NCBI GenBank assembly: GCA_020853845.1
Contig: JADYYD010000361.1
Location: 1 to 53,716 of the forward strand
Source: Candidatus Melainabacteria bacterium
GTDB taxonomy: Bacteria > Cyanobacteriota > Vampirovibrionia > Obscuribacterales > Obscuribacteraceae
Length of the DNA stretch: 53,716 nucleotides
Direction: 5' to 3'
Shown: positions 2,970 to 18,722 of the stretch, in pieces
Numbering within the stretch: position 1 is the first letter of the stretch
Layout of the letters: the number at the start of each line of letters is the position of its first letter
Translations under genes and position numbers: made by a program
Notes under the pieces: generated by a model
Told to the model about the DNA's origin: nothing
Databases searched by the model: none
The model's input: the letters and a program-made list of their open reading frames with translations, nothing else

Positions 2970-4889
2970 ATGAACTCCGATTCGCTCGACCAAAGGCGCA
3001 GAGAGCCGTCGGCGCAAATCGCTCTGGAGCAGCAATTGCGATCAGGCAAAAATGCCAGGCACTGTTTTATCGCCAGCAATTTTCTCTCTCAAACTGCCGA
3101 CAAAATTTCGATTCTCAGCCTGTTTTCATTGCTCATTTTTTTCGGACCGCAGGGTGAACTTTTGGGCTTGTCTTCATGCCTGGTGCTGCTGCCGCCCATA
3201 CTTTTCTCGTTTCCTGCAGGCGTACTTGCGGATCGATTCAATCCGTTTCGCTTGCTCAATCAGTCGACGCTCTTGCGCGCAACTATCGTCCTTGCGATTT
3301 CAATGTTGTTGCCGCAGATGCTTGATGAGATGCAACGCTGCGTTATCGCTTGCGCAGTGATGTTTGCCATTGGTTCCGCATCCACTTTGTTTGATATTTG
3401 CCGTTTGAAAATAACACCGAGAGTGGCGAAACTGACTGAGCATTCGAATTTTAAAAGTGGCGGCGCCGGTGAAAACAACATAGCACCGCTGGTGAGGCTG
3501 AATTCACTCTTCTGGGCCAGCTTGGCTGCAGCAATCATGGCTTCCACCACAGTCTGGCTTTTAACAGGGACCTCGATGCCGTGGTTTCTCCTGCGCGTTT
3601 CAGTGATGTTGTATGTGCTTGCCTATTTCGCCGGAGTCACATTGGAAAGTGTTTGCGCAACTGCTTTCAGAAGAAAAGACTTACCGGTTGATTTGACCTT
3701 TTTTCAGTATTTGAAGCGCCATAAACGCGCCGCAAAAACATTGTTTGTCAGCGCCGGCGTGGGCACGTTCTCACTGGCATTTTTTGTTTGCCTGACACTT
3801 TTTGCCTGGCAAGGACACCGGCTCAGCCCGACCATGATGACCGAGCTTCTTCCTGCACTCGCTCTCGGTCTGCTTTCCGGTGGACTGGCTGCGAACATGA
3901 CTGTGAAGAACGGCGGACTGACAAAATTGACCGAAGGGTTGGCGATTGTTTTAGCAGTCGCTTCGATAGCGGCTCTTGTCACTGCTTCGACAAGCTCTTT
4001 TCTCATTGCTCAGTTGGGTGTCTTTGCTCTGGGAGCTTCGGCAAGCAAGTCCCAATCATTGCTGGACACTCTTTGCCAGAGCTTGTTTCCACGTCAATAT
4101 CGCGGCAGGGCTCTCGGTCTGCGCACGTCATTGCAACTGATACCATTGATCGTCGCTGCCGTTTATTTAGAACGCATTTTGCCGGCGGTTTCGCTCTTGC
4201 CGGCCTTGCGCGTTCTTTCCATTACAGCTCTGGCGTTTGCTGTCTTGATGGCATTCGTTTGGAACGATCTGGTCTTCCTTTTGTGTCGCTTGTTCGCACG
4301 CGCTTTGCTGAAAGTCTTCTTTCATTTCAACGTTATCGACAAATCTCATGACGACATCGCATCCGGTATCAATCACTGGGGCAGGCGCAGAACAGTAATT
4401 TTGGCCGGAAACCACACGGGCTGGCTGGACCCATTGATCGTGGGTGCAATTTTCGAGCGTCGCACTAGATTTCTAGTCATGGCTGAAGCCATGGATTGGC
4501 CGTTCATAGGTTGGCTTGCATCAATGCTTGGAGCGATTCCACTGAGACGCGGAGAAGGGCACAAGGCCCTGGAAGCAGCCGGCAAATGCCTGGCGAGAGG
4601 AGAAAGCGTGCTGATTTTCCCGGAAGGACGTTTGACCAGAGACGGCAATATCGGCGAGTTTCAATCGGGTGTCGCCAGACTGCAGAAAGAAACGCAGTGT
4701 CCAATCGTTCCATTTGCAATAGCGGGCGGATTCGAAGCATGGCCCAAAGGAAGTAAGACTCCTCGCCCTGCCGCCGTGCGCGTTTCGATCGGTCGCCCCC
4801 TGGAAGTCAAAGAGCTGCGCGATTTGTCGGTTGAAGAAATCAAACATCTCCTGCACGACCGAGTTCGGGATTTGAAAAGTCATGGATGA
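2970..4889 (+). CDS. MFS lysophospholipid transporter fused to PlsC-type acyltransferase (LplT-PlsC)
   Basis: From the ATG at 2970 the protein has about 639 residues. The start is uncertain, since no strong ribosome site is visible and the frame is open upstream. The first ~430 residues form a polytopic MFS domain beginning near NFLSQTADKISILSLF, with PAGVLADRFNP as the loop 2-3 motif. The last ~190 residues are a glycerolipid acyltransferase with HTGWLD (HX4D box, residue ~482), FPEGR (~550) and VPFAIAGG (~580). In E. coli LplT flips lysophospholipids inward and Aas re-acylates them; here both functions sit in one chain without the Aas acyl-ACP synthetase part, so the acyl donor must come from elsewhere. 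The role is probably phospholipid recycling at the inner membrane. Its end overlaps the next gene by eight bases. Confidence 0.82.
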   Translation: MNSDSLDQRRREPSAQIALEQQLRSGKNARHCFIASNFLSQTADKISILSLFSLLIFFGPQGELLGLSSCLVLLPPILFSFPAGVLADRFNPFRLLNQSTLLRATIVLAISMLLPQMLDEMQRCVIACAVMFAIGSASTLFDICRLKITPRVAKLTEHSNFKSGGAGENNIAPLVRLNSLFWASLAAAIMASTTVWLLTGTSMPWFLLRVSVMLYVLAYFAGVTLESVCATAFRRKDLPVDLTFFQYLKRHKRAAKTLFVSAGVGTFSLAFFVCLTLFAWQGHRLSPTMMTELLPALALGLLSGGLAANMTVKNGGLTKLTEGLAIVLAVASIAALVTASTSSFLIAQLGVFALGASASKSQSLLDTLCQSLFPRQYRGRALGLRTSLQLIPLIVAAVYLERILPAVSLLPALRVLSITALAFAVLMAFVWNDLVFLLCRLFARALLKVFFHFNVIDKSHDDIASGINHWGRRRTVILAGNHTGWLDPLIVGAIFERRTRFLVMAEAMDWPFIGWLASMLGAIPLRRGEGHKALEAAGKCLARGESVLIFPEGRLTRDGNIGEFQSGVARLQKETQCPIVPFAIAGGFEAWPKGSKTPRPAAVRVSIGRPLEVKELRDLSVEEIKHLLHDRVRDLKSHG

Positions 4890-5685
4890 AAACGACTCTG
4901 CAAGTGTTTGCTCAAAGGCGTTCTTGAGCAACATCGCCTTTGTGGTCGTCAAACCTGTTTACCTTGGTAATATCGGCGCCGTCGCACGGGCAATGAAAAA
5001 TTTTGCCTTGAGCGATCTGCGCCTGGTCGATCCACCAAAGAATTACAAAGATGCAGAAGCTCGCAAAATGTCGGTAGGGGCATTCGACATTTTGAAGGGG
5101 GCTAAATTATTCGACTCTTTGGATGAAGCGCTTCACGACATATCGATAAGTGTAGGCACGACTTCAGGCAAGCAGCGAAAGCTCGTGCCTCTGCCGCTTT
5201 GCGAAGTGAGCTCATTAATCAGAACGCCTGCTGAAAAGAATAAAGTCGCCTTTATTTTTGGTGATGAGCGCGACGGTTTACGGCAGGAAGATTTGAATCG
5301 ATGCCACCATATAGTCACCATCCCTACATCGCCATTGCTTCCATCTCTCAACCTCGCCCAAGCTGCTTGCGTGATCGGATATGAGCTTTGCCGCAGTGAG
5401 ACGCAGCGCGCAGGGTCCTCAGGCAGCGGCAGTGAGGAAAAACGACACTCGGAGTTATCAACCGGTGCAATAGATTCGGAGTTATTGCAACTCTTCAGTC
5501 AAATTTCTGATTCTGTGAACTTTTCTCGCACGTTCAACAAAGGGTTAGTTCTCAGCGAATTCAGGCAGCTCTGGCAGAGAACTACGCCCACCAAGCGTGA
5601 GGCCGACCTTTTGAAAGGAGTGCTTATCCGTCTGCAACAACATCTGGCATTGAGGCAGAACGGCAGCGATGAGGGAACAGGTTGA
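4882..5685 (+). CDS. trmJ: SPOUT-class tRNA/rRNA methyltransferase, TrmJ-like
   Basis: This 267-residue protein has the three knot motifs of the TrmH/SpoU superfamily: GNIGAVARAMKNF (29-41), FGDERDGL (126-133) and IPTSPLLPSLNLAQA (147-161). The order and the C-terminal helical extension fit TrmJ, which 2'-O-methylates nucleotide 32 of the tRNA anticodon loop using SAM. A TrmH-type rRNA methyltransferase remains possible. The usual FGRE/FGPE is FGDE here. The ATG at 4882 lies inside the last codons of the MFS/PlsC gene (ATGGATGA overlap), implying translational coupling although the two functions look unrelated. Confidence 0.82.
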   Translation: MDENDSASVCSKAFLSNIAFVVVKPVYLGNIGAVARAMKNFALSDLRLVDPPKNYKDAEARKMSVGAFDILKGAKLFDSLDEALHDISISVGTTSGKQRKLVPLPLCEVSSLIRTPAEKNKVAFIFGDERDGLRQEDLNRCHHIVTIPTSPLLPSLNLAQAACVIGYELCRSETQRAGSSGSGSEEKRHSELSTGAIDSELLQLFSQISDSVNFSRTFNKGLVLSEFRQLWQRTTPTKREADLLKGVLIRLQQHLALRQNGSDEGTG

Positions 5686-5808
5686 GAGCACCCTGCCTGA
5701 CAACCGGATGTAAAGCCAAGGAGACTTGTCTTTCATACATGATAGGAAGGACTTGAGGTGTTAAGATGACTTTCAGTGAGCTGGCGTGAATCGAGTCGGG
5801 AGAGTCTT

Positions 5809-6492
5809 ATGAGTTTGCGGGTGAGGAAGGTCGGGTCTGTCGGAAGGGTCGCAAAAATCTGGATGACTGCGGCGACGCTTCTCACGATATCGGCGAACAT
5901 ACCCGTGTTTGCAGTCGTCGGCAATACTACGGCACCGGAAGTTCCTGTCCTCATGAAGAGGGGCTACGAGCAACTCAAGAAGAAGGATTTCCGAAGCGCA
6001 GTTACCACCTTCCGCGAAGCAGTCAAGCGCAACGTCAACGATCCACTTGCTCGCCGCTGCCTGGCGTACGCACTTTTGAGCGGCGGCGATGCCGAAGAAG
6101 CGCTCAATCAATTAATCCTCTTGACACGTTTGGCGCCTCCGGGCGCTGCCGACTGGTGCACTTTCGGCGAAGTCTATTTGATCGCGGGCAGTTACGAGCA
6201 GGCCGAAGGCGCCTTTCAGGACGCGCTCAAGCTGGATGAAAACCTCTTCTGGGCAAAGTGCGGCATCATCAGAGCCAAAGCCATGCAGCGCGACTTTAAG
6301 TCTGCTTATCGGTTGATAGCCGAGTTGATCGCTGATACTCATGACGACAAGAAGCGACGTTATCTCTACGCATTGCGCATCGCGGTTCGCAGACTGGAAC
6401 TCACACCCGTGCCTGAAGTGCCGAAAATGGATAGACCGGATGTGACGCCGGAAGAGTTGAAAAAGAATGGCGAGGAACCCCCGGGCGCGTAA
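5809..6492 (+). CDS. Exported TPR protein, paralogue A
   Basis: The ATG at 5809 has GGAG six bases upstream and gives about 227 residues. An in-frame GTG at 5776 lacks a site. A basic N-terminus and hydrophobic segment ending near VFAVVG look like a signal peptide. Three to four TPR-type repeats follow, the first starting LMKRGYEQLKKKDFRSAV. The protein ends in a proline/glutamate-rich tail. It probably acts as a periplasmic or surface scaffold; no catalytic residues are visible. It is closely related in order and wording to the next gene, which begins its first repeat LLQRGYEQMRRGNYDDAV. The pair therefore looks like a tandem duplication. Confidence 0.75.
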   Translation: MSLRVRKVGSVGRVAKIWMTAATLLTISANIPVFAVVGNTTAPEVPVLMKRGYEQLKKKDFRSAVTTFREAVKRNVNDPLARRCLAYALLSGGDAEEALNQLILLTRLAPPGAADWCTFGEVYLIAGSYEQAEGAFQDALKLDENLFWAKCGIIRAKAMQRDFKSAYRLIAELIADTHDDKKRRYLYALRIAVRRLELTPVPEVPKMDRPDVTPEELKKNGEEPPGA

Positions 6493-6660
6493 TTGCAGCG
6501 CCGGTTCTGCAGGGTCTGTTCAAAGCTGTTAGTCTTTTTGGACGCACCACGCTCGGTGCCCTGGTATCGCAGAAGCGCAGGGTTTCAAAGAGGCGCTTAG
6601 ATTGAAGTGGTCAAAGTGCTAAATCTGCTGCGTTGCATTGCCTAAAACTCATTCAGAGCG

Positions 6661-6689
6661 TTTTCATGGTGTTACTATTTGGCTAGAAT
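6661..6689 (+). promoter_or_regulatory. Candidate sigma-70 promoter for TPR paralogue B
   Basis: TTTTCA (6661-6666) and TAGAAT (6684-6689) are separated by 17 bp and lie about 43 bp upstream of the ATG at 6732. Each box matches the consensus at four or five positions. A small hairpin (GTCTGC/GCAGAC, 6691-6706) lies at the expected start of the transcript. Prediction by eye only. Confidence 0.35.
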
Positions 6690-6731
6690 AGTCTGCGCGT
6701 GCAGACGGCTAGTCGGCAAGGAGTGCTTTTG

Positions 6732-7373
6732 ATGTCAGGCAGAAACAAAGCGATGTTTTCCTTCTGGGCAATTATCGTGGCTTGCGGCATCTCCTTCAAC
6801 GGCGCGGACGCTTCAGCATCGGTCCCCGTCAAGCGCAAAGTCATAAGCTCACAGCTCAGCCAGCTCCTGCAGCGCGGCTACGAGCAAATGCGCAGAGGTA
6901 ATTACGACGACGCGGTAGTAACTCTTGCAGCGGCTGTCAAAAGCGATCCGGACAGTCTTTCTGCTCGCCGTTATCTGGCTTTCGCGCTGATGCGCAACGG
7001 GCATTCGCAAGAAGCGATGTACCAGATGCTGATTATTCAACGAATGGCCAAAGCATCACCCTTCGACAGCTATACACTTGGCGAAGCCTTTTCGAAGATG
7101 GGCAAAATGTCGGAAGCCGAAACATGCTTTAGAGATGCTCTGAAAGCTAATCCAAATTACGATCCGGCGCGCGCAAGCCTGATCAAAACCCTCTCCTCGA
7201 CTGGAAAGTACGATGAAGCTTTTGCAGAATGCATAACCGGCTATAAATCCGCCAAAACAGAAATGATGTCGCGCTATTACCGCATCCTCTATCAAAACGT
7301 TCAAGAGCAAAAGCTCTCGCTGCGCAAAATGCAAGATCAACTACAAGAGCAACAACAAGCCCCTTCTCCATAA
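6732..7373 (+). CDS. Exported TPR protein, paralogue B
   Basis: The ATG at 6732 is preceded by AAGGAG at eight bases and gives about 213 residues. A GTG at 6699 in the same frame lacks a site. A signal peptide (hydrophobic FSFWAIIVACGISF, cleavage near ADASA) is followed by about four TPR repeats (LLQRGYEQMRRGNYDDAVVTL, then LGEAFSKMGKMSEAETCFRDAL). A short coiled, glutamine-rich tail ends the protein (QDQLQEQQQ). Function is unknown beyond likely protein-protein interaction outside the cytoplasm. It has its own candidate promoter in the 239-bp gap after its paralogue, so it may be transcribed independently. Confidence 0.75.
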   Translation: MSGRNKAMFSFWAIIVACGISFNGADASASVPVKRKVISSQLSQLLQRGYEQMRRGNYDDAVVTLAAAVKSDPDSLSARRYLAFALMRNGHSQEAMYQMLIIQRMAKASPFDSYTLGEAFSKMGKMSEAETCFRDALKANPNYDPARASLIKTLSSTGKYDEAFAECITGYKSAKTEMMSRYYRILYQNVQEQKLSLRKMQDQLQEQQQAPSP

Positions 7374-7427: not shown

Positions 7428-7457
7428 TCTAATGATTGGCTGTCTAATGATTGGCTG
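7428..7457. repeat. 15-bp perfect tandem duplication spanning a stop codon
   Basis: The 15-bp unit TCTAATGATTGGCTG occurs twice in a row (7428-7442, 7443-7457). The second copy contains the last codons and the TAG stop of the minus-strand epimerase gene. The first copy repeats the same stop in the same frame just downstream. It looks like a recent slippage duplication with no effect on the protein. Confidence 0.85.
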
Positions 7458-8478
7458 AAAGATGCGCTGCGTCTTTGCCGTTTCGCTTAGCTTTGTTCAG
7501 ATAATAGGGCGAGGTCCGTTTTATAGTCTCTGAAAACGGCGTGGGGCGGAAGGCCAGTTCTTCTTCCGCTTTTTTAGAAGAGAAGAAAATCTTGTGCTGG
7601 CTGAGCCAGGCGACCTGACGAGAAAGTGCAGGTGTCAGCCCAAGCAATGGGAAGGTAGCTTCGATAAGAGTGCCCAGACCGACTATGAGCGGACCGGGAA
7701 TTTCCAGTACAGGAGCGCGCGTTCCGAAGACTTTGGAAAAAATCGTACCGGCTTCCCGCATAGTCAGGTTGGCGCTGACGAGCACGTAGCGCTCGCCTGT
7801 GCGTCCCTGGTCGAGAGCATTTATATGGGCGTCGACCACATCGTTGATGTCGGAAAACGGAACTCCGCCTGGTGGAACGCCAAGCGCCCAGCCCTTGGCC
7901 ATGGCGCCGAAAATTACATGATGATGCGGGTGTGTATCACCTTCACCAAATATGATACCGGGATTGAGCATGATGACCGGTAATCCCTGACGAACGAACG
8001 AGTTGACTTCGAGCTCTGCCTCATGCTTCGTGTCGCAGTAGGACAGCCCCAGTCCATGCAAGTTGTATTCGAATTCTTCATCACCAAGCTCACCTTCCTT
8101 GGGTATTCCCATGGCTGCAACAGAGCTCGTGTGTATGACACGTTTGATGTTATTGCGCAGGCAGGCATCGAGGATATTGCGCGTGCCTAGAACATTGACG
8201 GCGTATTGCCGAGCCATGTCCCTTTTCTTGTACGAGACAAGACCGGCAAGATGGTAAACGACATCGCAGCCGGACACGGCTTCTTGCACGTGCTCGGGAT
8301 TGGTCACATCCCCGCGCCTGTGCTCCAGATTGAGACTCTGAAAGGCTTTAGGCACCAGGTTGCTGCGTCCCATGGTCCTCACTTGATGCCCTAAGGCGAC
8401 CAGCTTAGGCACGAGGCTGGAGCCGATGAAACCACTTGCTCCGGTGACCAGAATTTTTAAGGGACGCTGAGCTTCCAT
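7444..8478 (-). CDS. NAD(P)-dependent epimerase/dehydratase (extended SDR)
   Basis: This 344-residue extended SDR has the Rossmann motif TGASGFIG near residues 12-19 and the catalytic YCDTK (YxxxK). It also has the family's mid-region signature LNPGIIFGEGD and a C-terminal substrate domain. Relatives reduce dihydroflavonols, oxidise 3-beta-hydroxysteroids or act on nucleotide sugars. The closest wording is to the dihydroflavonol-reductase / hopanoid-associated epimerase group, so a hydrophobic substrate is plausible. It is the last gene of the seven-gene minus-strand operon, four bases after the preceding SDR. The stop lies within a tandem duplication. Confidence 0.8.
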   Translation of the reverse strand: MEAQRPLKILVTGASGFIGSSLVPKLVALGHQVRTMGRSNLVPKAFQSLNLEHRRGDVTNPEHVQEAVSGCDVVYHLAGLVSYKKRDMARQYAVNVLGTRNILDACLRNNIKRVIHTSSVAAMGIPKEGELGDEEFEYNLHGLGLSYCDTKHEAELEVNSFVRQGLPVIMLNPGIIFGEGDTHPHHHVIFGAMAKGWALGVPPGGVPFSDINDVVDAHINALDQGRTGERYVLVSANLTMREAGTIFSKVFGTRAPVLEIPGPLIVGLGTLIEATFPLLGLTPALSRQVAWLSQHKIFFSSKKAEEELAFRPTPFSETIKRTSPYYLNKAKRNGKDAAHLSANH

Positions 8479-8482
8479 GAGG

Positions 8483-9472
8483 TTACTTATTAGAAGAATA
8501 GACCTGAAGTGCAGTATTCAAGGGCACTGGTTTTGCCGCCAGCAATTCCTCGATACGATTATCGGTACAGATATTATCGCGCATTGACAAATTGACCTGA
8601 TCACAAGAAAGAATCGGCACGTCCTGAACCATCTGGCAGACCGCGGCGGCAGCCATTGCTAAAGGGTAAGGAAGGGCGACGATGGGTTTGTTCACAGCGC
8701 GCACGGACATCAACTGCTTGACCAGATCGCGCATGGTCAATACTTCAGACCCGCCCAGTTCAAGAGGCTCCTGCATCGGTTTGCCCGAGAGCAACCGGTC
8801 AATGGACGCCACACCGGCAAGAGCCATATCGCCGATAAAAAGCGGCTGCAGCTTATTGACGCCGCCGTTGACGAGAGGCACGGCTTTCTTTTCCGCGATT
8901 ACTTTGAGCAATCGCTCAACAAGCTTGCTGTTTCGCCTGCCTACCTGACGCCCGACAAGCAACGAAGGACGCAAAATTATCGAGGACAATCCGCTGCTTA
9001 GCAGACTGGTCTCAGCTAGATACTTAGTGGAATGATACGTGCTGACCGCATCGGATTTGGTGCCCAGCGCAGTGACCATCAGCGCACTTTGCACACCTGC
9101 AGCTTTTGCTTTTTCGATGAAGCAGTCGGTCATGACCACATGCAAAAGCCCATGGTTGGTACCTTTCTTGGGCGCAATGCTGCCTATCAGGTGAACTGCC
9201 ACACGCGCGTCTTTGAAGGCGCTCGAAACTTCGGCATCATTGCCGGTCAGCTCACCGACGAAAATTTTTGCACCCAGCTTTTTCAAAACCTGAATGTCTT
9301 CATTGTTGGCGCCTTTATGCACCAGACAGCGAATTTCCGCACCGGATGCGGCAAGCGCCGCCACCAGGTGATTGCCTAAATAGCCGGTGGCGCCGTCCAC
9401 TACAATCGCACCTTTTTGAGACAAATCGAAAGGTGACTGCAAATCTTTCGGCTGCATCAAAATGTCACTCAT
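8483..9472 (-). CDS. Atypical SDR, NAD(P)H-binding (NmrA/NDUFA9-like)
   Basis: This 329-residue protein carries the nucleotide-binding motif GATGYLGNHL near residue 28 and a conserved YHSTK. It has the region ILRPSLLVG typical of the atypical SDR group that includes the complex I NDUFA9-like proteins and NmrA-like reductases. It acts in the cytoplasm, probably as an oxidoreductase or NAD(P)H sensor; substrate unknown. The first ~25 residues precede the Rossmann fold. Its ATG overlaps the end of the Mpo1-like gene by eight bases (ATGAGTGA), so translation is probably coupled. It is one of three SDRs in this operon. Confidence 0.75.
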   Translation of the reverse strand: MSDILMQPKDLQSPFDLSQKGAIVVDGATGYLGNHLVAALAASGAEIRCLVHKGANNEDIQVLKKLGAKIFVGELTGNDAEVSSAFKDARVAVHLIGSIAPKKGTNHGLLHVVMTDCFIEKAKAAGVQSALMVTALGTKSDAVSTYHSTKYLAETSLLSSGLSSIILRPSLLVGRQVGRRNSKLVERLLKVIAEKKAVPLVNGGVNKLQPLFIGDMALAGVASIDRLLSGKPMQEPLELGGSEVLTMRDLVKQLMSVRAVNKPIVALPYPLAMAAAAVCQMVQDVPILSCDQVNLSMRDNICTDNRIEELLAAKPVPLNTALQVYSSNK

Positions 9473-9743
9473 TGGTCGTACTCGCCTTCTTATCTGCTGT
9501 AAGTTTTTTCCAAAGATGTTTTATCAGCGTAACTTCGCCGACTTCGTTGCCCTGCGCCTTATGACCAAGATATTGCAGAAAATATCCGGCGAAAATAAGG
9601 CCGGCGCCCAGCGAAAATTGTCCCGTTGCAAAAAGGAACATACCGTAGAATGCCGCCGGCACCCCAACGATATGCAAGCATGCATTGACCGGATGTTTAT
9701 GCCGCCCAATATAATCAACGACGAATTCTTTGGCGTTCATCAT
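9465..9743 (-). CDS. Small membrane protein of the Mpo1/DUF962 type
   Basis: This 92-residue protein has two hydrophobic segments (VGVPAAFYGMFLFATG and LGAGLIFAGYFLQYLGH). The spaced residues HKHPVNACLHIVGVP and LGHKAQGNEVGEV match the DUF962 / Mpo1 family. Yeast Mpo1 is an Fe(II) dioxygenase that removes one carbon from 2-hydroxy fatty acids, and its key histidines are the ones retained here. The bacterial proteins are largely uncharacterised. It overlaps both neighbours (ATGA with the upstream SDR, eight bases with the downstream SDR), fixing it firmly in the operon. A lipid substrate for the whole pathway would fit. Confidence 0.65.
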   Translation of the reverse strand: MMNAKEFVVDYIGRHKHPVNACLHIVGVPAAFYGMFLFATGQFSLGAGLIFAGYFLQYLGHKAQGNEVGEVTLIKHLWKKLTADKKASTTNE

Positions 9744-10792
9744 CGTGCCACCGCCTCTTTTCCACTTTTCTCACTGCGTTCGGCCTTGAAATATTCAAGT
9801 GTCTTATCCATGCCGACTTTAAATGGAACACGATTTACATAGTTCAGCTCTTTCTCGGCCTTTTTTACTGAAAAACCTTGATTCACACCGGCCAGGCGAA
9901 ACGCAGCCCGGGAGAAACGAGCTAGAGAGCGTTGTTTTTCCACCGGCAGCATTGGTGCAAAAGAAGATATCATTTCACATGCAAAACGAGCTACCGGAAC
10001 CGGTATCTGTTTCGTCACGCGAGGAAGCGACAGTCCATCGGCAATGGCGTCGAACAGTTGCTTCTTCGTAATGCGCTCACCGTCGGTTAAATTGAAAACC
10101 TGACCGAAAGCATTGGCGTTGAGCAACGCATTTTCTATTGCCTGGCTGAGATTGCCCACATAGATGACATTGGTCTCTTTGACGCCGCCACCGATAAGCA
10201 TCGCTTTTCCGGTGCCGATCGAATTGATCAATCGCGGCATCCAGGCTTTCTCACGCGGACCGTAGATAAACCCCGGGCGCACCGCTGTCACTTTCAAAGC
10301 TGATGTGGGCGGTTCGCTCATCACCAGTCGCTCCGCTTCCACTTTCGAATCGGCATAAGACTCTCCGCAAGGTTTCAGCTCGGCCGATTCATCGACATCG
10401 AATTGATCTCCCTGACCGGTGATAACAGACAGGCTGCTCACAAAAATGAATTGTTTAACCCCGACCGCTCTTGCCGCAGCCAGAGCAGATCTTGTCCCTT
10501 CGACGTTGGTTTTGAAAATCGACTCTCGTGAACCATAAGGATCAACAGTACCGGCTGCGTGCACCACCACATCACATCCGGCAAATGCATTCTCCAGAGC
10601 CTGCTTATCGTTTACATCGACAGCCTTCAAGGTAAGATTTCCCGGACCGCCGATAGAGTTCAGACATTTTTCAGTTGGCGCATTGCGCGACATCGCCACC
10701 ACGTTGTAGCCCTTGCCGACAAGGTGTTCCGCCAGGTGGCTGCCAACGAGCCCTGAGGCTCCCGTTACCGCCACCTTCACTTTTGCTGTCAT
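9740..10792 (-). CDS. NAD(P)-dependent epimerase / 3-beta-HSD-like extended SDR
   Basis: This 350-residue extended SDR has TGASGLVGSHL near the N-terminus, the catalytic YADSK, and VRPGFIYGPRE. The last is the usual substrate-pocket motif of the 3-beta-hydroxysteroid dehydrogenase / sugar epimerase group. It is likely a cytoplasmic NAD(P)-dependent alcohol dehydrogenase or reductase. It is similar in architecture to the SDR at 7444-8478, suggesting successive oxidoreduction steps on related intermediates. A 71-bp gap separates it from the GH3 gene upstream, and its stop overlaps the Mpo1-like start. Confidence 0.8.
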   Translation of the reverse strand: MTAKVKVAVTGASGLVGSHLAEHLVGKGYNVVAMSRNAPTEKCLNSIGGPGNLTLKAVDVNDKQALENAFAGCDVVVHAAGTVDPYGSRESIFKTNVEGTRSALAAARAVGVKQFIFVSSLSVITGQGDQFDVDESAELKPCGESYADSKVEAERLVMSEPPTSALKVTAVRPGFIYGPREKAWMPRLINSIGTGKAMLIGGGVKETNVIYVGNLSQAIENALLNANAFGQVFNLTDGERITKKQLFDAIADGLSLPRVTKQIPVPVARFACEMISSFAPMLPVEKQRSLARFSRAAFRLAGVNQGFSVKKAEKELNYVNRVPFKVGMDKTLEYFKAERSEKSGKEAVAR

Positions 10793-10863
10793 CGATTTTT
10801 CCTTCCCTTTCTAACTCAAGAACAAATTTTCGCTATCTGTAAAAAAATCCCGGTCACCTTTTC

Positions 10864-12537
10864 TCAGGGCACTTGAATCTGCGCAAGCTGTCCGGAAAAC
10901 GAACTGTATGCACTGAGAAGAGGTATCTTCACTTGTGCTTCCGGCGCTCCTTGAGAAACTCTCTGTTGCCGCAATTTCATATACGTGCCGGAAGGCAATG
11001 TGCGCATCACCGGCAAGCCAAGGCGTTTCGTCGAACGTTTATCGTCATACTCCGGATTTTGATTTTTGAGCGAATCATCAAAAATACGGATGAACTGACT
11101 CTTCACCGAATCCGGCAGTTCGGAGCTGACTTCAGCGAATGCCACATAGAAAGGCGGACTGCCGAGTTCCACTTCCACAGTGCAGTGTTCGACTTCATTC
11201 AAACCGAGTTGCGTTTTTGCCATCGTCAGCGCGACAAGCACCTGCTCTTCCGTTAGTTTTTCACCAGTTATCGAGCTTACTCCCATGCCTTTTCTTACGA
11301 ACTGAATGATCGGCGTTTCGTCCTGGAAATCGACGACTTCAATCAAATCGTTGATGTTGTACCGGTAGAGACCGGCGGCGGTCGTAAAGTATATGTAGTA
11401 GCGGCCGCCCTTTTTGAGCTGGTGCGCAAGCAAGAATTTGGGGCTGGATGATTCAAGTTCATCCTCTTCAACGAACTCGTAGAAGTGGCTGGTCAATGCC
11501 AGGACGCCACCGGCACCGTCGCTCGAAAGCGGAATAGTTCCGCGCCCTTCGCTGGCCATATAACCGAAGTCACGCACCGGCATATTGCCGTAAAGCTCAG
11601 GCAATTTGTCCAGATAGAACGCCATCGGTCCGCCTTTCCAGCAGACAAGAATTTCCAAATTGGACCACACTTTACGGGGCAGAAGCGTGCCTTCTTTCTC
11701 GAGCATTCTGTCTAGCTGGCGAGCGCGTTCTTTATTGGGCGCGAAGTATTTGCTGAATGCTTCATCGTAAATCGCAGGCGGACGGTGCGCGTGTTTGACC
11801 GTGCCGTCGAAAAGATCAGAAACGAGATCTCCTGCGTGCTCACGCATCTGGTCGGCAAGTAAAAGCAAACTGGACGGATTGCAGCAAATAAGCGCTGTAA
11901 CGTCCAGCCCGAGAGCGGAGCGGAGCATCAAATAATACTTGGTGTCGACATTTTTGATTTTGCACAACTCATAAGGCGTTGCAAAATGCTTGCGAATGAC
12001 TTCCGGCTGGCGGCGATTCAACATGCCGGAAACCGCACCATAAGGTATGTCCGACTCTGTGCGTCCTTCCTCGTCGTTGCTTGTAATAAGCAGAAATCTT
12101 CCATCGGCAGCACGCGGATAATCTTTGATCAGGTGATAGTTGTGAACTTGAAATGCGTGAGTGTAGTCGCGAATATGGCTGGCAGTGATCGGAATGAATT
12201 TAGGCAGGGCGGTGGTGCCGCTGGTGGTGGCGAACATGAAGGGAGTTTCCCGGGTCAACTGGTTTGTTCCGCCGGCACGCACACGATCGATGTAAGGCTG
12301 CAGATCCTCATATTTAGAGGGCGGCACATAGCGTTGATAATCTTCTACCGTGCGTATCTTGTCAAAATTGTGAGCCTTTCCGAAAGCGCTATTTTCATTG
12401 GCTCGAATAAAGCTGAGCAATTTTTGCGATTGCACCGCCTCCGGCTTCTTGACCGCATCGAGGAAGCGGCGAATGTGCGTGGCGCGCCGGTAGAATTGCC
12501 CCAGATGAATTAGACTCGGACGCTTAAACTTATACAT
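10864..12537 (-). CDS. GH3 family acyl-adenylating enzyme (acyl acid amido synthetase-like)
   Basis: The ATG at 12537 is preceded by AAGGGG and overlaps the upstream gene by eight bases. An in-frame start at 12585 would overlap by 56 bases. The protein has about 557 residues. The firefly-luciferase/ANL fold of the GH3 group is shown by FATTSGTTALPKFIPIT (phosphate loop, residue ~100), IPYGAVSGML, DFGYMASEG and YRYNINDLIEV in the C-terminal half. Plant GH3 enzymes adenylate auxin, jasmonate or benzoate and conjugate them to amino acids. The substrate of bacterial members is mostly unknown. Next to an enolase-superfamily epimerase and several SDRs, it probably activates a carboxylic acid for amide or ester formation. 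Confidence 0.85.
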   Translation of the reverse strand: MYKFKRPSLIHLGQFYRRATHIRRFLDAVKKPEAVQSQKLLSFIRANENSAFGKAHNFDKIRTVEDYQRYVPPSKYEDLQPYIDRVRAGGTNQLTRETPFMFATTSGTTALPKFIPITASHIRDYTHAFQVHNYHLIKDYPRAADGRFLLITSNDEEGRTESDIPYGAVSGMLNRRQPEVIRKHFATPYELCKIKNVDTKYYLMLRSALGLDVTALICCNPSSLLLLADQMREHAGDLVSDLFDGTVKHAHRPPAIYDEAFSKYFAPNKERARQLDRMLEKEGTLLPRKVWSNLEILVCWKGGPMAFYLDKLPELYGNMPVRDFGYMASEGRGTIPLSSDGAGGVLALTSHFYEFVEEDELESSSPKFLLAHQLKKGGRYYIYFTTAAGLYRYNINDLIEVVDFQDETPIIQFVRKGMGVSSITGEKLTEEQVLVALTMAKTQLGLNEVEHCTVEVELGSPPFYVAFAEVSSELPDSVKSQFIRIFDDSLKNQNPEYDDKRSTKRLGLPVMRTLPSGTYMKLRQQRVSQGAPEAQVKIPLLSAYSSFSGQLAQIQVP

Positions 12538-13768
12538 GAAGTCCCCTTCTTGTTGCCTCGATGGCGGCGGTATCTTGCGCAGCATTCGCTGCTGGCTGCT
12601 TCATTACGAAGCGCCCCAAATGTCTGTCGTCAACGGTCACACCAATGCCATTTCCTCCGGGCATCTTAGCTTTGCCGCCCCAACCGGCGGTCATGTTCTC
12701 TCTGGTCAGATCTTCTTTAAGCAAGAAGAAATTGGCCGCCCCTTCGTAATTTTCGAAGCTAGAATTTGCCACTGCCAGCGCACGTCCGGCAGCCGTCAGA
12801 ATTCCGCTTTCGCCCACCTGGGCCCCTAAATGCACGTGGATTCGGTTTTTCTGAGCGATGTCGACAATCTTCTGAGCGGCTATCAAACCGCCCACCTTGG
12901 AGATTCTGATATTGAAACCTCTGCACGCCTTCATTGCTGCAAGCTTCTCCGCTTCGTCTACAGTGCATAGAGATTCATCCACGACGATCTCAGGCTGCAA
13001 AACTTTAGTGAGCTCGACCAGCTCGTCCAGCCGATCAAATGGAACCGGCTGCTCGATCGATGCAATGTTGAAACCCTTTGCCCGGTTGGAGAATTCGACT
13101 GTTTGATCGTAATTCCAGGCGCAATTGGCATCTACCCTCAGGACGACTCGGTTTCCCAAAAGTTCGCGAGCTTTTCGCACTGTAAAGATATCCAGCTCGG
13201 AATCGTCGCCCACTTTTAACTTCACAGTTTTGAAACCGTACAGCTTGTAGAAAAACAAGAGAGCGGAGAGGGTTTTTCGTTTTCCAAAAGGAATGACTCC
13301 GCCGTATTGAATCGACTGGTCCGGCCATCTGTCTTTTCGCTTAGCAAGCCAATCGCACAAAGCAATGCCTTCTGCTTTTGCACAAGCATCCAGCAGCGCC
13401 AATTCGAGCGCGCAAAATGCAGCACCGATGCGCTTTGAATAAACATTGTTCGCAACCGCGACTGCTTCGAGTAAATGGGCCGCCGCATCCGTAGGGCTCA
13501 CTCCATCGGCTAATGTCTGACCGGCAAGCATGGGGGCAAAATTCTTTTCGATCTCATCGACAGCACTATTGCAACTTTCGCCGGTCACATATTCGCGCGG
13601 CACGCTTTCGCCCAAACCAGATATGGTGGCGCCCGCCGAATTCTCCAGCTTGACTTGAACAATCACATTTTGGGAGAACGACCTGGATGCCAGGCTATGT
13701 TTGAACGCAAAGCGAAACGGCAAAAGCACCGTTGAAACCTGAATGTCGGCAATGCGAAACTCTGTCAC
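12530..13768 (-). CDS. Enolase-superfamily enzyme, muconate-lactonising/dipeptide epimerase subgroup
   Basis: This 412-residue protein starts at a GTG. The N-terminal capping domain is followed by the TIM barrel with all expected residues: KLK (183-185), metal ligands D213 (RVDANCAW), E239 (IEQP) and D264 (VVDES), and K291 (RISKVGG). Lysines on both sides of the active site define the MLE subgroup, which includes L-Ala-D/L-Glu epimerases, o-succinylbenzoate synthase and N-succinylamino-acid racemases. It abstracts an alpha proton next to a carboxylate. No menaquinone genes are nearby, and the GH3 neighbour makes an amino-acid- or dipeptide-like substrate more likely than a MenC role. It overlaps the hydrolase stop by one base (TAGTG). 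Confidence 0.82.
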   Translation of the reverse strand: MTEFRIADIQVSTVLLPFRFAFKHSLASRSFSQNVIVQVKLENSAGATISGLGESVPREYVTGESCNSAVDEIEKNFAPMLAGQTLADGVSPTDAAAHLLEAVAVANNVYSKRIGAAFCALELALLDACAKAEGIALCDWLAKRKDRWPDQSIQYGGVIPFGKRKTLSALLFFYKLYGFKTVKLKVGDDSELDIFTVRKARELLGNRVVLRVDANCAWNYDQTVEFSNRAKGFNIASIEQPVPFDRLDELVELTKVLQPEIVVDESLCTVDEAEKLAAMKACRGFNIRISKVGGLIAAQKIVDIAQKNRIHVHLGAQVGESGILTAAGRALAVANSSFENYEGAANFFLLKEDLTRENMTAGWGGKAKMPGGNGIGVTVDDRHLGRFVMKQPAANAAQDTAAIEATRRGLHV

Positions 13769-14763
13769 TATGACGCTCCTCGCTTTGCACTGCGAGCAGT
13801 TATCCAGCCGCTTATTTCATTGGCATAGTCGAAAAAATGACGATTATCAAAGTCGAGGCTATGCGCCGCCTTTTCATAAATTTGCAGTTTCTTGTCCTTG
13901 CAGTCGACGCGCTTAAACCATGACTCCAAACCAGGCACATCGACAATGGCGTCGTTATCTGACTGCAAAATCAAAGTCGGCAGATCGATATTTCCGGCAG
14001 CGCCAAGCGATCGCAACGACAAAAGCCAGCTTGCGAAATAAAACGCTTTGCTGGCTGAAATAAGACGATAAGGATCGCTCTCGATGTAGTTGAGATAAAG
14101 AGGATTATCCGTGAACATCGAACAAGTCAAAGGAATCGGAAACTCCGACTGCAGCGCATTGCCGCGCATAATCAAGGCGGCGGCGATGGAGAGTTTTTGA
14201 ATCAAACTCAAATCGGGTTTGGTTTTGATTGCAGGACAAATCAAAACAAGTCCGCTCAAGGGTACTTTTGCGAACTGACTCGACCACTTGTACGTTTTTG
14301 ACGCTACAATCGCGCCCAATTTCGCGCCCCAGCAGTTTGCCAGTATGAAGATCGATTGTTGCGGGTGTTTCTCGGCGATCAAATGGAGAAAAAACTCAAC
14401 GTCGATCAACAGTTGATCGGCATCTTTCACATGTCCACGTTGATAGGTATTGAGCCCGGCGCCCCGGCGATCGGGTGCGTAGACGGAGATTCCGGACTTG
14501 TTCAATAAAGAGGCGGTATTGGCGAACCATAGTGAATGCCCTTCGATGCCGTGAAGATAAAGGGCCACGGGACCGCCGGCATCGGGCGCCATGAACTTTC
14601 GCAGCCGAATTTCGGCGCCATTCACATTGATTACTTCTACGTCACCATCACTCTGGCGCGGCAATTTCTCGCCTGAGGGCAGGCGCTGAAGCGGCAGAGC
14701 AGGCGAAGAAGCGCCCCGGTCTTCAGGTTGACGCTTGGAGGTTGAGTCGACTAAATGCATCAA
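13768..14763 (-). CDS. Alpha/beta hydrolase (S33, lysophospholipase-like), first gene of the GH3 operon
   Basis: This 331-residue protein has the S33 hydrolase layout: oxyanion loop YLHGIEGHSLW, APDRRGAG after strand beta-4, acid in LQSDNDAIVD and histidine in KAAHSLDF. The nucleophile elbow is ANCWGA instead of GxSxG, so the expected serine is a cysteine. That is unusual; dienelactone hydrolases use cysteine in this position. No signal peptide is visible; the first ~40 residues look disordered. It leads the minus-strand operon ending at 7444, and the 265-bp gap upstream (14764-15028) must hold the operon's promoter. Confidence 0.75.
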   Translation of the reverse strand: MMHLVDSTSKRQPEDRGASSPALPLQRLPSGEKLPRQSDGDVEVINVNGAEIRLRKFMAPDAGGPVALYLHGIEGHSLWFANTASLLNKSGISVYAPDRRGAGLNTYQRGHVKDADQLLIDVEFFLHLIAEKHPQQSIFILANCWGAKLGAIVASKTYKWSSQFAKVPLSGLVLICPAIKTKPDLSLIQKLSIAAALIMRGNALQSEFPIPLTCSMFTDNPLYLNYIESDPYRLISASKAFYFASWLLSLRSLGAAGNIDLPTLILQSDNDAIVDVPGLESWFKRVDCKDKKLQIYEKAAHSLDFDNRHFFDYANEISGWITARSAKRGAS

Positions 14764-15028
14764 TATTGGGCTTTTCGCCTAAATGAAGTTAGCAAGATAT
14801 ACATTTTGAACCGAAACAGCGCCATATATTCGTAAAAATCCGCAAATGTGCGCCAGCGCCTGAGTTTAACACCTCTTGATATCTTTACATCTCTCTGATG
14901 ACCGAGTTTCGCAGACTTTTAGGAGATTCTTGACCAGTGCTTAACATTCATTAGTTAGATTACACAGAGCTGTCTAGTTTGCGTAGTAAAGTATATGACT
15001 GGGGTTTTACACGTTATTGGAATCTAAT

Positions 15029-15733
15029 ATGTCGCGTAAATCGGGGTGGATGCCGACCCTTATCGAGAGAATCACGATTGGATGCAAGACAAGTCCGTTC
15101 AGCGGCGGCATTCAAGACGCAACCGTTATTCCTCTGGGAAGCGAAATTTGTTTGAGTCTCTGGCCTTTCATTAGAGAGCTGCCGCGCAACATCGCTCTGG
15201 TTAGAGATTCGTTGCCGGAAAATATGGATGCCGGCAAAAAATTGTTCAATCAGCTTGCCGACGAAGAGCTGACCTACCAGCAAATGTACGTCAAACAGTG
15301 CCATCTGGCAGGCATCACTGACGAGCAGTTGAAGACCGACATACTGAACGAAGCCAGTCTTCATCTCTGTCAGGTCATTCGCAGATGGTGCGAAAGCCCG
15401 AATTACAAAGACGGAGTTCTTGCTGTTGTGACGGCGGAATTGGCGGCTACTGCGTATGCCAGGCAAACACTCGAAATTTTCGAGAAGTATTTTCTCCAGG
15501 ATCATGCCGACCAATACAGCAAAGAAGAAGTGGAAGACGGTCTCGAGTGGTTGAGACATCATTCGCGCCCTCACACTCGTCATGCGCTCTGGATGCGCCG
15601 CATGTTGGACGATATCGAAGTAGCGCCCGGCGACAAGCTGCCGCCGGCGGCACAGACTGTGCTGGATGCCCTGTATCATCTCTGGAAATGCCCTCAAGAA
15701 ACCGATGAACAGCTTCTTGAAGGCGCTCGCTAG
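15029..15733 (+). CDS. Haem-oxygenase-fold protein (TenA/PqqC/CADD-like), function unknown
   Basis: The ATG at 15029 gives about 234 residues; a TTG at 15017 is possible, and neither has a clear ribosome site. The sequence is all helical. It has acidic/histidine positions resembling the metal-binding helices of the PqqC/CADD group: ADEELTYQQMY, VVTAELAATAYARQ and, near the end, RHHSRPHTRHALWM. In the last motif the H-x3-D-x2-H of CADD would read H-x3-H-x2-H. Such proteins include thiaminase II, PQQ synthase and di-iron oxygenases. Assignment rests on pattern only. It is followed closely by LolA-like and methyltransferase genes on the same strand. Confidence 0.5.
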   Translation: MSRKSGWMPTLIERITIGCKTSPFSGGIQDATVIPLGSEICLSLWPFIRELPRNIALVRDSLPENMDAGKKLFNQLADEELTYQQMYVKQCHLAGITDEQLKTDILNEASLHLCQVIRRWCESPNYKDGVLAVVTAELAATAYARQTLEIFEKYFLQDHADQYSKEEVEDGLEWLRHHSRPHTRHALWMRRMLDDIEVAPGDKLPPAAQTVLDALYHLWKCPQETDEQLLEGAR

Positions 15734-15777
15734 TCATCATTAGTCATTGCGGCATCTCTAGCGTGGAGGATCGGCAA

Positions 15778-16566
15778 TTGAGTAAGAATGCGCCCGGACG
15801 TGCATCGAGAATTTCCAAACTTCTTTCCATGGCCGGCTTCGCTGCCGTCCTTGCCGCGCAGAGTGTTGCGATTGCCGGCAATGACGCGCACGACTCAAAA
15901 CGTTTAATCAGCTCGCTTGCTGATATGAAACCCGCACAGACTGCCACGTTTTCTGATGGTCACAGCTTCGTGCAGCATATGTTGAACTCAGCGGACAGTC
16001 TGGAGAGTTATTCGTTCAATTACAAAATGAGCGCCGTCAAAGGCGACAAGACAGTAGTCGAGAAAGGTGATTTCTATTTCAAGAAACCGCGTTTGATGCG
16101 TCTTGAGGTTACAGAAGGAAAGCGCAAAGGTTCGGTTGCCATCCTGCAAGCCGATGGACGTGTGCGCGGCAAAGCGCCGGGTCTGGGCGTTTTCGCTTCC
16201 ATGATCACACTTTCCCCCGACTCGAAATTTCTCAGATCCGTCAACGGTTATCCGATGGTCCAATCTGATTTTCACTCGCTTGCGCAAGCTCTGAAGAAAT
16301 TTCTCGATGATGGTGCCTCGGCAAAAATCACCACTCACACAGTATCCGAGCGGCTCGGACATAAGCCTTCACATTTGATCGAAGTTTATACCGACAAGAC
16401 GCAGTCTCGTTTGTTCAAACGCGTTTTCGTTGACGCGAACAACTACCTGCCTGTAGAGTGGTACGACTATGAAGATGGCAAGCTGTCTTCAGAGAGTTCC
16501 TGGCAAAATTTCAAAAGCGATCCCACAATGTCCGTCGCTTTATTCTCTTTAAAGGGAGATAACTAA
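15778..16566 (+). CDS. Exported LolA-like protein
   Basis: The TTG at 15778 has GGAGG eight bases upstream and fits better than the in-frame GTG at 15763. It gives about 262 residues. A signal peptide (SKLLSMAGFAAVLAAQSVAIAG) is followed by a LolA/LppX-like half-barrel: an amphipathic helix (FVQHMLNSADSLESYSF), then alternating strands with GDFYFKKPRLMRLEV, VFVDANNYLPVEWYDY and a C-terminal strand near VALFSLKG. LolA-fold proteins bind lipid or lipoprotein acyl chains in the periplasm. This one lacks obvious chaperone-partner context (no LolB or LolCDE nearby). Its stop codon abuts the next GTG, implying coupling. Confidence 0.65.
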   Translation: MSKNAPGRASRISKLLSMAGFAAVLAAQSVAIAGNDAHDSKRLISSLADMKPAQTATFSDGHSFVQHMLNSADSLESYSFNYKMSAVKGDKTVVEKGDFYFKKPRLMRLEVTEGKRKGSVAILQADGRVRGKAPGLGVFASMITLSPDSKFLRSVNGYPMVQSDFHSLAQALKKFLDDGASAKITTHTVSERLGHKPSHLIEVYTDKTQSRLFKRVFVDANNYLPVEWYDYEDGKLSSESSWQNFKSDPTMSVALFSLKGDN

Positions 16567-17217
16567 GTGAGTTTCAACGTCCCAACCCTGGTGACCGTCG
16601 CATTGGTTTCAGTGGGAGCGGTAATCGCCGCGCCTGTTCTGACGAAAGCATTTATCCGCCGTGGTACCGGCGTCAAATACGAAAAGAACTTCATCATTCA
16701 ACGAGCGCCTCAATATGCCTCGGTACTGACTATTTTTGCTTTGATTCCTGCGTTCTTGATGTACTCGGACGTCATCAAAGCCGACTGGGCGCATCCCCTT
16801 ATTACAATCGGTCAGGGTGAACCTCAGGGTTTCGCAGCGATTATGTCCTGGCTCGGCGTGCTCGTCCTTATAAGTGGATTGATATTTATGATCGGCGGCT
16901 GGATATCGCTCGGCGAAGCCTTCACTACCGATGCGGAAATCCTCGAAGATCACAAAGTAAAAAGCGACGGCTTGCTGAAGTTCGTCATGCACCCGGCATA
17001 TTCCGGCATCATCCAATCTCTTCTTGGTGCTTCTCTCGCCTCCACGTCCATTCCTCTGGTGCTCTTCACCGTCGGGGTGGTGGCACCACTCTGGCTCAAT
17101 CGGGCTAAATACGAAGAGAAGATTCTTCTGGAGAACCTGGGCGAAGGCTACAGAGAATATGCCGAGAAGATGAAATGGCGCAGACTGGTGCCCAAATTCA
17201 TACCGATAGGCGTTTAA
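16567..17217 (+). CDS. Membrane methyltransferase, ICMT/PEMT-like
   Basis: The GTG at 16567, with GGGAGA seven bases upstream and immediately after the previous stop, gives 216 residues. Four to five membrane segments are visible (VTVALVSVGAVIAAPVL, YASVLTIFALIPAFLMY, IMSWLGVLVLISGLIFMIGG, IIQSLLGASLAS and the one after it). The C-terminal cytoplasmic signature LKFVMHPAYSGII, then RAKYEEKILLENLGEGYREY, is that of isoprenylcysteine carboxyl methyltransferase and phospholipid methyltransferase relatives. SAM-dependent methylation of a membrane-soluble substrate is likely. It forms a three-gene run with the haem-oxygenase-fold and LolA-like genes. Confidence 0.78.
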   Translation: MSFNVPTLVTVALVSVGAVIAAPVLTKAFIRRGTGVKYEKNFIIQRAPQYASVLTIFALIPAFLMYSDVIKADWAHPLITIGQGEPQGFAAIMSWLGVLVLISGLIFMIGGWISLGEAFTTDAEILEDHKVKSDGLLKFVMHPAYSGIIQSLLGASLASTSIPLVLFTVGVVAPLWLNRAKYEEKILLENLGEGYREYAEKMKWRRLVPKFIPIGV

Positions 17218-17423
17218 TCACCGTCAAATATATTTCATTGCAAGCTGGGTCCGGAAAAGCCCAGCCGCAAGGCCGGAGAAACTCATGACAAGCTCATGAC
17301 TTTCTTTTAGTCTTCTGTCCTCTTCAAATCCCCGACTTGTCATGATAAGCTAGCCCGAAGCGCGAAGAGCGCCATCTACAGCCTGTTTACAGATTGCGCT
17401 GAGACACATTCACTAGAAGAGAG

Positions 17424-18722
17424 ATGCTCGTGATAGACAAACATTCGAGACCATTGCTCAAAGGGCACCAACTTGCAGGAATTGCACTCGCCCTTTCTTT
17501 GACAGTCCTCAGCTCAGGCGCGGTTCCCTCTGCGCAAGCAAAAGGACTGTTCGGCGACGAAACAAAAGATTCGAAAACAGAAGGCTCGCTGCAAGCCCAG
17601 CTATATCAAATTCAGCAGCAACTCACGCAACTGCAAGCGCAAATGACTCAATTGCAACTGCAGATGAACAAGCGCACCACTGTAATAGAACAAAAGCAAA
17701 ATTCATTGCACGAAACGCTCACTCAGCAGGGCGCAGTGCTCAGAAGTTTGAATCGCGAAGAGCAGCAGCTCGAGCATCAAGTTCAAGCGGTAGCAAGACA
17801 AGTCGAGCCGCTTGCCGTCAAACCTGCAGCACCGCGTGTTCAAGTTCAACAGCCGACACTCGAAGAGAGCGCCGACTATGAAGTCGCCAAAGTAAATACG
17901 AAGGCTACACCGGCGTACAAGTCGCACATTCAAGATCTGGACGCCACAGATGCTGCAGCGACAGGCGCGCGCAAAAAGCCGGTGGCAATCGCCGCCAAAC
18001 CGGCGACTGTGACACCGCCGGCAGTGACAGACAAGAAATCCAAGAAAGCCGAAGAAAAGGCGGAGAAAGCAGAAAGAGCCGAGCGAGAAAAGGCAGAAAG
18101 AGCTGAAGAGAAGGCTGATGCTAAAACCGGCGGCCGCATGTTGCCCGGATATTTTGGTGACAGGCTTTCCAAGGCGAAGAAGGAAACATCTTCTACCCAG
18201 CCGCAAGCACAGGCCGCTGCTCCTCAAGCAGAACCGGCAAGACAAAACCTCAACAGCGGCAAGCCCCGTGTCAAAGCTTCCATCATTATCAAAGCGCCGC
18301 CCGAAGCTGTTTGGGACGCTGTTCACGAACAAAGAAAGACCGATCCTGAACTGGCTTACAGCAAGGTGCTCAAACAGGGCGTCAATGAAGCAGTGCTAGA
18401 GCAAAAGTTCACCGTCATTCCAATGATCGGCTCGGCCGTCTGCACGATGAATACACAAGAAGTTCCGAATCGCCGCATCGACTATCAAATGATCAAGTCC
18501 GACCGATTTAAAGCAATGGAAGGAAGCTGGGTCTTAACTCCGTCCGCCGATGGCAAAACCACGACATTGGAGCTTTCTACCCACGTTGATCTTGGACTTC
18601 CGGTGCCGAAGAGCATGATGAACGGCGTCACGCACAAGAAGCTCGAGCGCCGATTGTCCGCAGTGCGCGAATTGGCAGAGAAATCGCGCATGGCGCAAAA
18701 GCCGGGCGGCGGCACTCACTAG
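17424..18722 (+). CDS. Exported coiled-coil protein with C-terminal SRPBCC (START-like) domain
   Basis: This 432-residue protein opens with a long signal peptide (cleavage near SAQAKG, ~40). A glutamine-rich coiled coil spans ~52-128 with repeated LQAQ/LQLQ heptads. An Ala/Pro/Lys/Glu linker includes a charged KAEKAERAEREKAERAEE helix (~205-230). The SRPBCC domain (~283-420) begins VKASIIIKAPPEAVWDAV and ends with a long helix LERRLSAVRELAEK. SRPBCC domains bind hydrophobic ligands in a deep pocket. Most bacterial members are cytoplasmic, so an exported one on a coiled-coil stalk is unusual. It may carry lipid or polyketide across the periplasm. The 206-bp upstream gap holds a CATGACAAG/CTTGTCATG inverted repeat (17284-17344). 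Confidence 0.72.
   Translation: MLVIDKHSRPLLKGHQLAGIALALSLTVLSSGAVPSAQAKGLFGDETKDSKTEGSLQAQLYQIQQQLTQLQAQMTQLQLQMNKRTTVIEQKQNSLHETLTQQGAVLRSLNREEQQLEHQVQAVARQVEPLAVKPAAPRVQVQQPTLEESADYEVAKVNTKATPAYKSHIQDLDATDAAATGARKKPVAIAAKPATVTPPAVTDKKSKKAEEKAEKAERAEREKAERAEEKADAKTGGRMLPGYFGDRLSKAKKETSSTQPQAQAAAPQAEPARQNLNSGKPRVKASIIIKAPPEAVWDAVHEQRKTDPELAYSKVLKQGVNEAVLEQKFTVIPMIGSAVCTMNTQEVPNRRIDYQMIKSDRFKAMEGSWVLTPSADGKTTTLELSTHVDLGLPVPKSMMNGVTHKKLERRLSAVRELAEKSRMAQKPGGGTH

Follow-up and report, generated by a model that had tools for sequence, protein, structure and literature searches.

The window examined here is a 53,716-nucleotide stretch of contig JADYYD010000361.1 from Candidatus Melainabacteria bacterium (family Obscuribacteraceae). 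It carries an operon that joins a GH3 acyl-acid amido synthetase to an enolase-superfamily enzyme of the MLE subgroup. Seven minus-strand open reading frames (ORFs) fill positions 14763-7444 in the order alpha/beta-hydrolase, MLE, GH3, SDR1, Mpo1-like, SDR2, and SDR3, where SDR denotes a short-chain dehydrogenase/reductase (Table 1). An earlier note, made from the sequence, had described seven packed genes with one 71-bp exception, and this layout is reproduced in full. All ORFs are present, and their products belong to the Pfam families Hydrolase_4, MR_MLE_N/C, GH3 N/M/C, Epimerase/3Beta_HSD, Mpo1-like, NAD_binding_10, and Epimerase, respectively, in agreement with that description. The hydrolase gene starts with TTG and overlaps the MLE gene by 1 bp. 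The GH3 gene overlaps the MLE gene by 56 bp when its upstream start is used, and by 8 bp when translation begins at Met17 (position 12537). Because the first ~24 GH3 residues are not conserved, Met17 is likely the real start. The widest junction is the 71-bp gap between GH3 and SDR1. SDR1 and the Mpo1-like gene overlap by 4 bp, the Mpo1-like gene and SDR2 overlap by 8 bp, and SDR3 follows SDR2 after a 4-bp gap.

Table 1. Features of the operon and of the adjoining divergent block (positions in the window).
Feature	Position	Strand	Basis
alpha/beta-Hydrolase (Hydrolase_4, monoglyceride-lipase fold), Cys nucleophile; proposed O-acyltransferase	13768..14763	-	Cys-Asp-His triad, structure model
Enolase-superfamily enzyme of the MLE subgroup; proposed to epimerise or racemise an N-acyl amino acid at its alpha carbon	12530..13768	-	active-site residues
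GH3 acyl-acid amido synthetase	10864..12585	-	full GH3 N/M/C, three nucleotide motifs
SDR1, extended SDR, OleD/sterol-4-carboxylate-dehydrogenase-like	9740..10792	-	YxxxK and TGASGLVG motifs conserved
Mpo1-like small membrane protein (PF06127)	9465..9743	-	conserved His residues
SDR2, atypical SDR related to complex-I 39 kDa subunit (NDUFA9)	8483..9472	-	
SDR3, extended SDR, HpnA-like	7444..8478	-	
Probable bidirectional promoter in divergent intergenic region	14764..15016	.	long invariant blocks within genus
Haem-oxygenase-fold protein (CADD/UndA/TenA-like), opens divergent block, first ATG 15029	15017..15733	+	in 20/24 loci
LolA-like protein related to DUF1571, possible periplasmic lipid carrier	15763..16566	+	in 21/24 loci
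ICMT/PEMT-type membrane methyltransferase-like protein	16567..17217	+	Pfam; in 24/24 loci
SRPBCC (Polyketide_cyc2) lipid-binding domain protein	17424..18722	+	Pfam; in 21/24 loci

Each of the 24 loci from relatives in the genus and family contains all seven genes with order and orientation unchanged, even though protein identities fall to ~36% for the hydrolase and SDR2 and to 39% for MLE. The left neighbours (2658-7373; tetratricopeptide-repeat genes, SpoU, and an MFS-acyltransferase gene) are present in at most 7 of these loci, and therefore the operon order does not reflect general synteny. The seven-gene arrangement is far beyond chance. The MLE gene is single-copy in 48 of 50 family genomes spanning 24 genera. 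One of the two genomes without it is 75% complete; the other, G015, is 98% complete, also has no GH3 match, and represents a natural loss of the operon MLE. Loci with this gene order in the wider scan described below carry the labels Candidatus Obscuribacterales, Candidatus Melainabacteria, and Candidatus Obscuribacter phosphatis. These data support a real, conserved, and uncharacterised operon, and the gene order, which the earlier note had named among the features to check, is identical throughout.

The association between GH3 and MLE extends well beyond the family. We searched 85,000 species genomes with an MLE alignment and then scanned the neighbourhoods with hidden Markov models built for this analysis. 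Of 51 related MLE loci outside the family, 19 have a GH3 gene no more than 3 kb from MLE; the 15 more distant, generic MLE loci of the same scan have none. The neighbouring pairs come from about nine phyla: Chloroflexota, Binatota, Sumerlaeota, Auribacterota, Planctomycetota, Nitrospinota, Pseudomonadota, Bdellovibrionota, and the window's own phylum, where the case outside the family belongs to another class, Tanganyikabacteria (L094, L083). A case in Omnitrophota is weak, with a score of 91 bits and a long branch. Named strains with the pair are Neiella marina J221 (L107) and Pseudoalteromonas sp. MSK9-3 (L133). Pairwise distances of MLE and GH3 correlate with r = 0.80 across 27 loci and 0.74 across the 18 loci outside the family, values reached by 0 of 5000 permutations. 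The two trees also share groupings: Neiella with Planctomycetota L114; Auribacterota with L111, Thermoguttaceae, and Sumerlaeia; a group defined by a fatty acid (FA)-hydroxylase; and a Chloroflexota-Binatota-Tanganyikabacteria group. MLE and GH3 are inherited or transferred as a pair.

GH3 genes also occur apart from MLE. In cyanobacteria, most GH3 genes lack a neighbouring MLE. Of 13 planctomycete genomes whose MLE is unlinked, 12 contain GH3 elsewhere, which may simply mean that GH3 is common in planctomycetes; GH3 is found in 0 of 14 genomes carrying generic MLEs. Deltaproteobacteria with a related MLE have no GH3 match in their genomes, except for L168 of the FA-hydroxylase/GH3 group. Their MLE genes mostly overlap or follow a lipid-A-type (PF03279) acyltransferase gene, from which we infer that a similar MLE has been combined with different acylating enzymes, one replacing the other. 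An MLE gene directly following a PF03279 acyltransferase, often near a sensor kinase, was seen in L096, L097, L099, L101, L104, L110, L112, L124, L155, and L156. In three further loci (L108 5169-8288, L109 7868-11137, L134 9560-11936), a PP-loop-ATPase-like gene with an SGGKDS or SAGKDS motif adjoins MLE, and in L108 and L109 two MLE copies flank a gene of the size of the PP-loop-ATPase-like gene.

A second GH3 (GH3b, 41% identical) is encoded on contig C208 of the same genome (L053) and in L058-L065, beside a GT21-like glycosyltransferase and a 2500-2700 aa NMO-KS-AT-ACP synthase. This cluster is present in nearly all loci examined, sister family included, and constitutes a separate, conserved, glycolipid-like cluster. 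With this other conserved pair (polyketide synthase (PKS) and glycosyltransferase) beside it and its position in a separate clade, GH3b was ruled out as a member of the present system.

Several partner genes recur around the pair. An alpha/beta-hydrolase of the same family lies near MLE in 7 of the 19 GH3-linked loci outside the family versus 0 of 32 loci without an adjacent GH3 (p = 4e-4). OleD-like and NDUFA9-like SDRs stand beside GH3-MLE in L111 and L113, and a DUF1571 protein in L111, L113, and L114 is homologous to the LolA-like protein of the window (hhalign probability 95.7, E 9e-9). An FA-hydroxylase-superfamily domain is fused or adjacent to the MLE-linked GH3 in six loci; its sole NCBIfam match is OlsE, an ornithine-lipid hydroxylase (172-197 bits versus a cut-off of 475). 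Ketosynthases or highly reducing PKSs lie near the pair in L111, L113, L133, and L135, and a haem-oxygenase-like iron protein directly precedes MLE-GH3 in L094/L084. This pattern bears on whether two pathways are merged here, such that SDR2, SDR3, the Mpo1-like protein, and the LolA-like protein are merely co-transcribed and the true unit is hydrolase-MLE-GH3, perhaps with SDR1. Only this core recurs outside the family, and neither the Mpo1-like protein nor SDR3 was seen next to GH3-MLE in the loci examined from other phyla. However, the seven-gene order is strict even at low identity, and homologues of SDR1 and SDR2 do follow the pair in L111 and L113, together with the DUF1571 protein. We regard a fusion of two pathways as improbable.

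Gene content, gene order, co-evolution, and partner recurrence can be read directly from the sequences, as can the active-site residues. The catalytic set of MLE is complete, with K183/K185 forming the KxK motif on strand 2, D213/E239/D264 serving as metal ligands, and K291 on strand 6, as expected of the MLE subgroup. The residues that the earlier note had listed as intact (K185, D213, E239, D264, and K291) are indeed all in place. This constellation resembles those of N-acylamino acid racemases and L-Ala-D/L-Glu epimerase, and MLE also has the TGE loop of dipeptide epimerases. However, E342/A344 align with D321/D323 of 1JPM, the strand-8 DxD pair of L-Ala-D/L-Glu epimerase, and MLE falls in a supported clade apart from the generic MLE sequences of the same scan. 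Because DxD is replaced by E-x-A, a dipeptide epimerase was rejected, and the comparison with such enzymes drawn in the earlier note finds no support. Enzymes of the MLE subgroup deprotonate the carbon next to a carboxylate, and their known substrates include N-acyl amino acids. The DxD pair holds a free amino terminus; its absence therefore fits an N-acylated amine, although it does not prove one. GH3 has full N/M/C domains (PF03321) and intact nucleotide motifs (TTSGTT-PK, YMASE, and GLYRYNIND). It shares its family and these three motifs with plant GH3 enzymes (JAR1/GH3.11 and GH3.12, by matches in the Protein Data Bank (PDB)), from which it differs in being bacterial, operon-borne, and accompanied by lipid-type partners. 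The YxxxK and glycine motifs of the SDRs and the histidines of the Mpo1-like protein are intact. SDR1 is OleD-like, but its score of 148-153 misses the OleD cut-off of 580 and the operon has no OleA or OleC homologue; with these partners absent, the OleABCD olefin pathway was rejected.

The hydrolase has a Cys-Asp-His triad with the nucleophile Cys144 in the motif NCWGAK, and this residue is Cys in 25 of 25 family sequences. Its model (predicted local distance difference test (pLDDT) 92.5) adopts the monoglyceride-lipase fold. Polyhydroxyalkanoate synthases are acyltransferases of the alpha/beta-hydrolase fold that use Cys, and Cys-dependent hydrolases exist as well. Because acyltransferases of the same fold use Cys, acyl transfer rather than hydrolysis is a fair guess. 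The lipase fold, the often catabolic PDB relatives of MLE, and the oxidation of 2-hydroxy fatty acids by yeast Mpo1 could instead suggest that the operon breaks down an environmental lipid or aromatic compound through the hydrolase, the SDRs, and Mpo1-like alpha-oxidation, with GH3 only disposing of the acid as a conjugate. We find this catabolic role quite improbable, given the Cys nucleophile, the PKS/ketosynthase, OlsE-like, and DUF1571 partners of related clusters, and a single-copy distribution across the family that is unlike that of patchy catabolic genes.

The closest known system is the planctomycete OlsH/OlsI ornithine-lipid pathway. In Singulisphaera acidiphila, the GH3 enzyme OlsH uses ATP and a free fatty acid to make N-acyl ornithine, and OlsI (Sinac_1601), an alpha/beta-hydrolase O-acyltransferase, adds a second acyl chain; this is the only pathway characterised there among thousands of bacterial GH3 homologues (PMC12493201). 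The operon shares with it a GH3 and an alpha/beta-hydrolase in one operon, as do seven loci outside the family, and a proposed N-acylation followed by O-acylation; relatives of the window's GH3 are also fused to an OlsE-like hydroxylase. It differs in adding an enolase-superfamily enzyme and three SDRs and in having no OlsG gene between. Although OlsH (NF052613) is the sole NCBIfam match of GH3, the score of 116 bits is far under the cut-off of 620. No OlsB-family acyltransferase (Acetyltransf_5) was found in 35 relatives; a canonical OlsB/OlsF ornithine lipid was accordingly rejected, and this absence leaves room for a GH3-based amino lipid in the group. We found no published description of the MLE-GH3 pairing, the OlsH paper being the sole relevant match in a search outside which subscription papers and preprints fell.

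These observations allow us to propose that the operon encodes biosynthesis of an amide-linked lipid of the N-acyl-amino-acid type, a proposal we hold to be evenly balanced between right and wrong. GH3 would use ATP to adenylate a free fatty acid, probably a 3-hydroxylated one, and pass the activated acyl group to an amine, either that of an amino acid or a related one. MLE would then deprotonate the N-acylated product at the carbon next to its carboxylate and invert this centre, as the N-acylamino-acid racemases of its subgroup do. The Cys hydrolase would place a second acyl group on the hydroxyl of the first chain, and the SDRs and the Mpo1-like protein may fix the form of the chain or shorten it, either ahead of coupling or afterwards. 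The divergently encoded LolA-like, SRPBCC, and methyltransferase-like proteins could modify and move the lipid. In this scheme, we infer the substrates, the order of steps, the product, the stereochemical role of MLE, and acyl transfer over hydrolysis. The earlier note had suggested acid activation, conjugation, and stereochemical editing, which remains the best available reading because GH3 and MLE co-evolve across phyla and their partners are lipid-type; it had overlooked the divergent gene block, the precedent set by OlsH/OlsI, and the fact that the hydrolase nucleophile is Cys. More tentatively, and with rather less confidence, the operon may represent a cross-phylum class of lipid pathways in which GH3 forms the amide, an enolase-superfamily enzyme sets stereochemistry (e.g., of a D-amino-acid head group) or remodels the carbon that bears the carboxylate, and a Cys hydrolase transfers the acyl group, with the product a near-universal membrane or envelope lipid of Obscuribacterales.

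Several points weigh against the amide-lipid proposal. The scores of GH3, MLE, the OlsE-like domain, and the SDRs are all far under NCBIfam equivalog cut-offs, and the loci outside the family come mostly from metagenome-assembled genomes. The hydrolase is not obligatory there, given its presence in only 7 of 19 GH3-linked loci, and 4 of those 7 hydrolases have Ser rather than Cys. The substrate of GH3 could be a non-fatty acid, and some members of the operon may be passengers. Beta-elimination and cycloisomerisation are likewise within the repertoire of MLE enzymes, and the acid activated by GH3 could equally be a product of MLE. In that case, MLE would act before GH3 by syn beta-elimination or cycloisomerisation, as o-succinylbenzoate (OSB) synthase precedes OSB-CoA ligase, and the product would be an amide or ester of an unusual acid rather than a stereo-edited amino acid. 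The best NCBIfam matches of MLE are muconate cycloisomerase and MenC models, the set of alpha/beta-hydrolase, MLE, and adenylating enzyme parallels MenH-MenC-MenE, and the haem-oxygenase-like (HDO), FA-hydroxylase, and PKS partners produce unusual acids. However, none of these models reaches its cut-off. MenD is over cut-off in 0 of 45 relatives, and menaquinone synthesis was rejected; catechol/muconate degradation is not supported, as the window's own genome has no intradiol dioxygenase over cut-off, although 8 of 31 relatives have one. The earlier note had named a match of GH3 and MLE to a known, unrelated pathway as grounds for refutation, and neither menaquinone synthesis nor catechol degradation provides one. 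We consider an acid-forming MLE rather unlikely.

The four-gene plus-strand block at 15017-18722 is kept alongside the operon in the relatives' loci (Table 1), with a Ppx/GppA gene past it in 18 of 24. The haem-oxygenase-fold protein that opens the block (model pLDDT 89) has CADD and UndA as its closest solved structures. Because its candidate di-metal ligands, placed by sequence alignment only, vary between orthologues, oxidase activity is doubtful. Upstream of the block, the DNA of positions 14940-15030 is near-invariant within the genus and better conserved than the remaining intergenic sequence. Rfam gave no match, to a riboswitch or to any other known RNA, anywhere in the window. Further left, 2658-4889 encodes a large membrane protein with an N-terminus judged by eye to resemble the major facilitator superfamily (MFS) and a C-terminal PlsC acyltransferase, similar to an LplT-Aas fusion.

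Our analysis ties one branch of bacterial GH3 enzymes to a specific enolase-superfamily clade with recurrent partner genes, and the cultured bacteria Neiella marina J221 and Pseudoalteromonas sp. MSK9-3 allow the hypothesis to be tested directly. We found no literature on the membrane lipids of Obscuribacterales in searches that left subscription papers and preprints outside. Obscuribacterales are poorly known, non-photosynthetic relatives of cyanobacteria, and the operon is present in almost every member of the family. If the proposal is true, its product would be the first lipid marker for this order.

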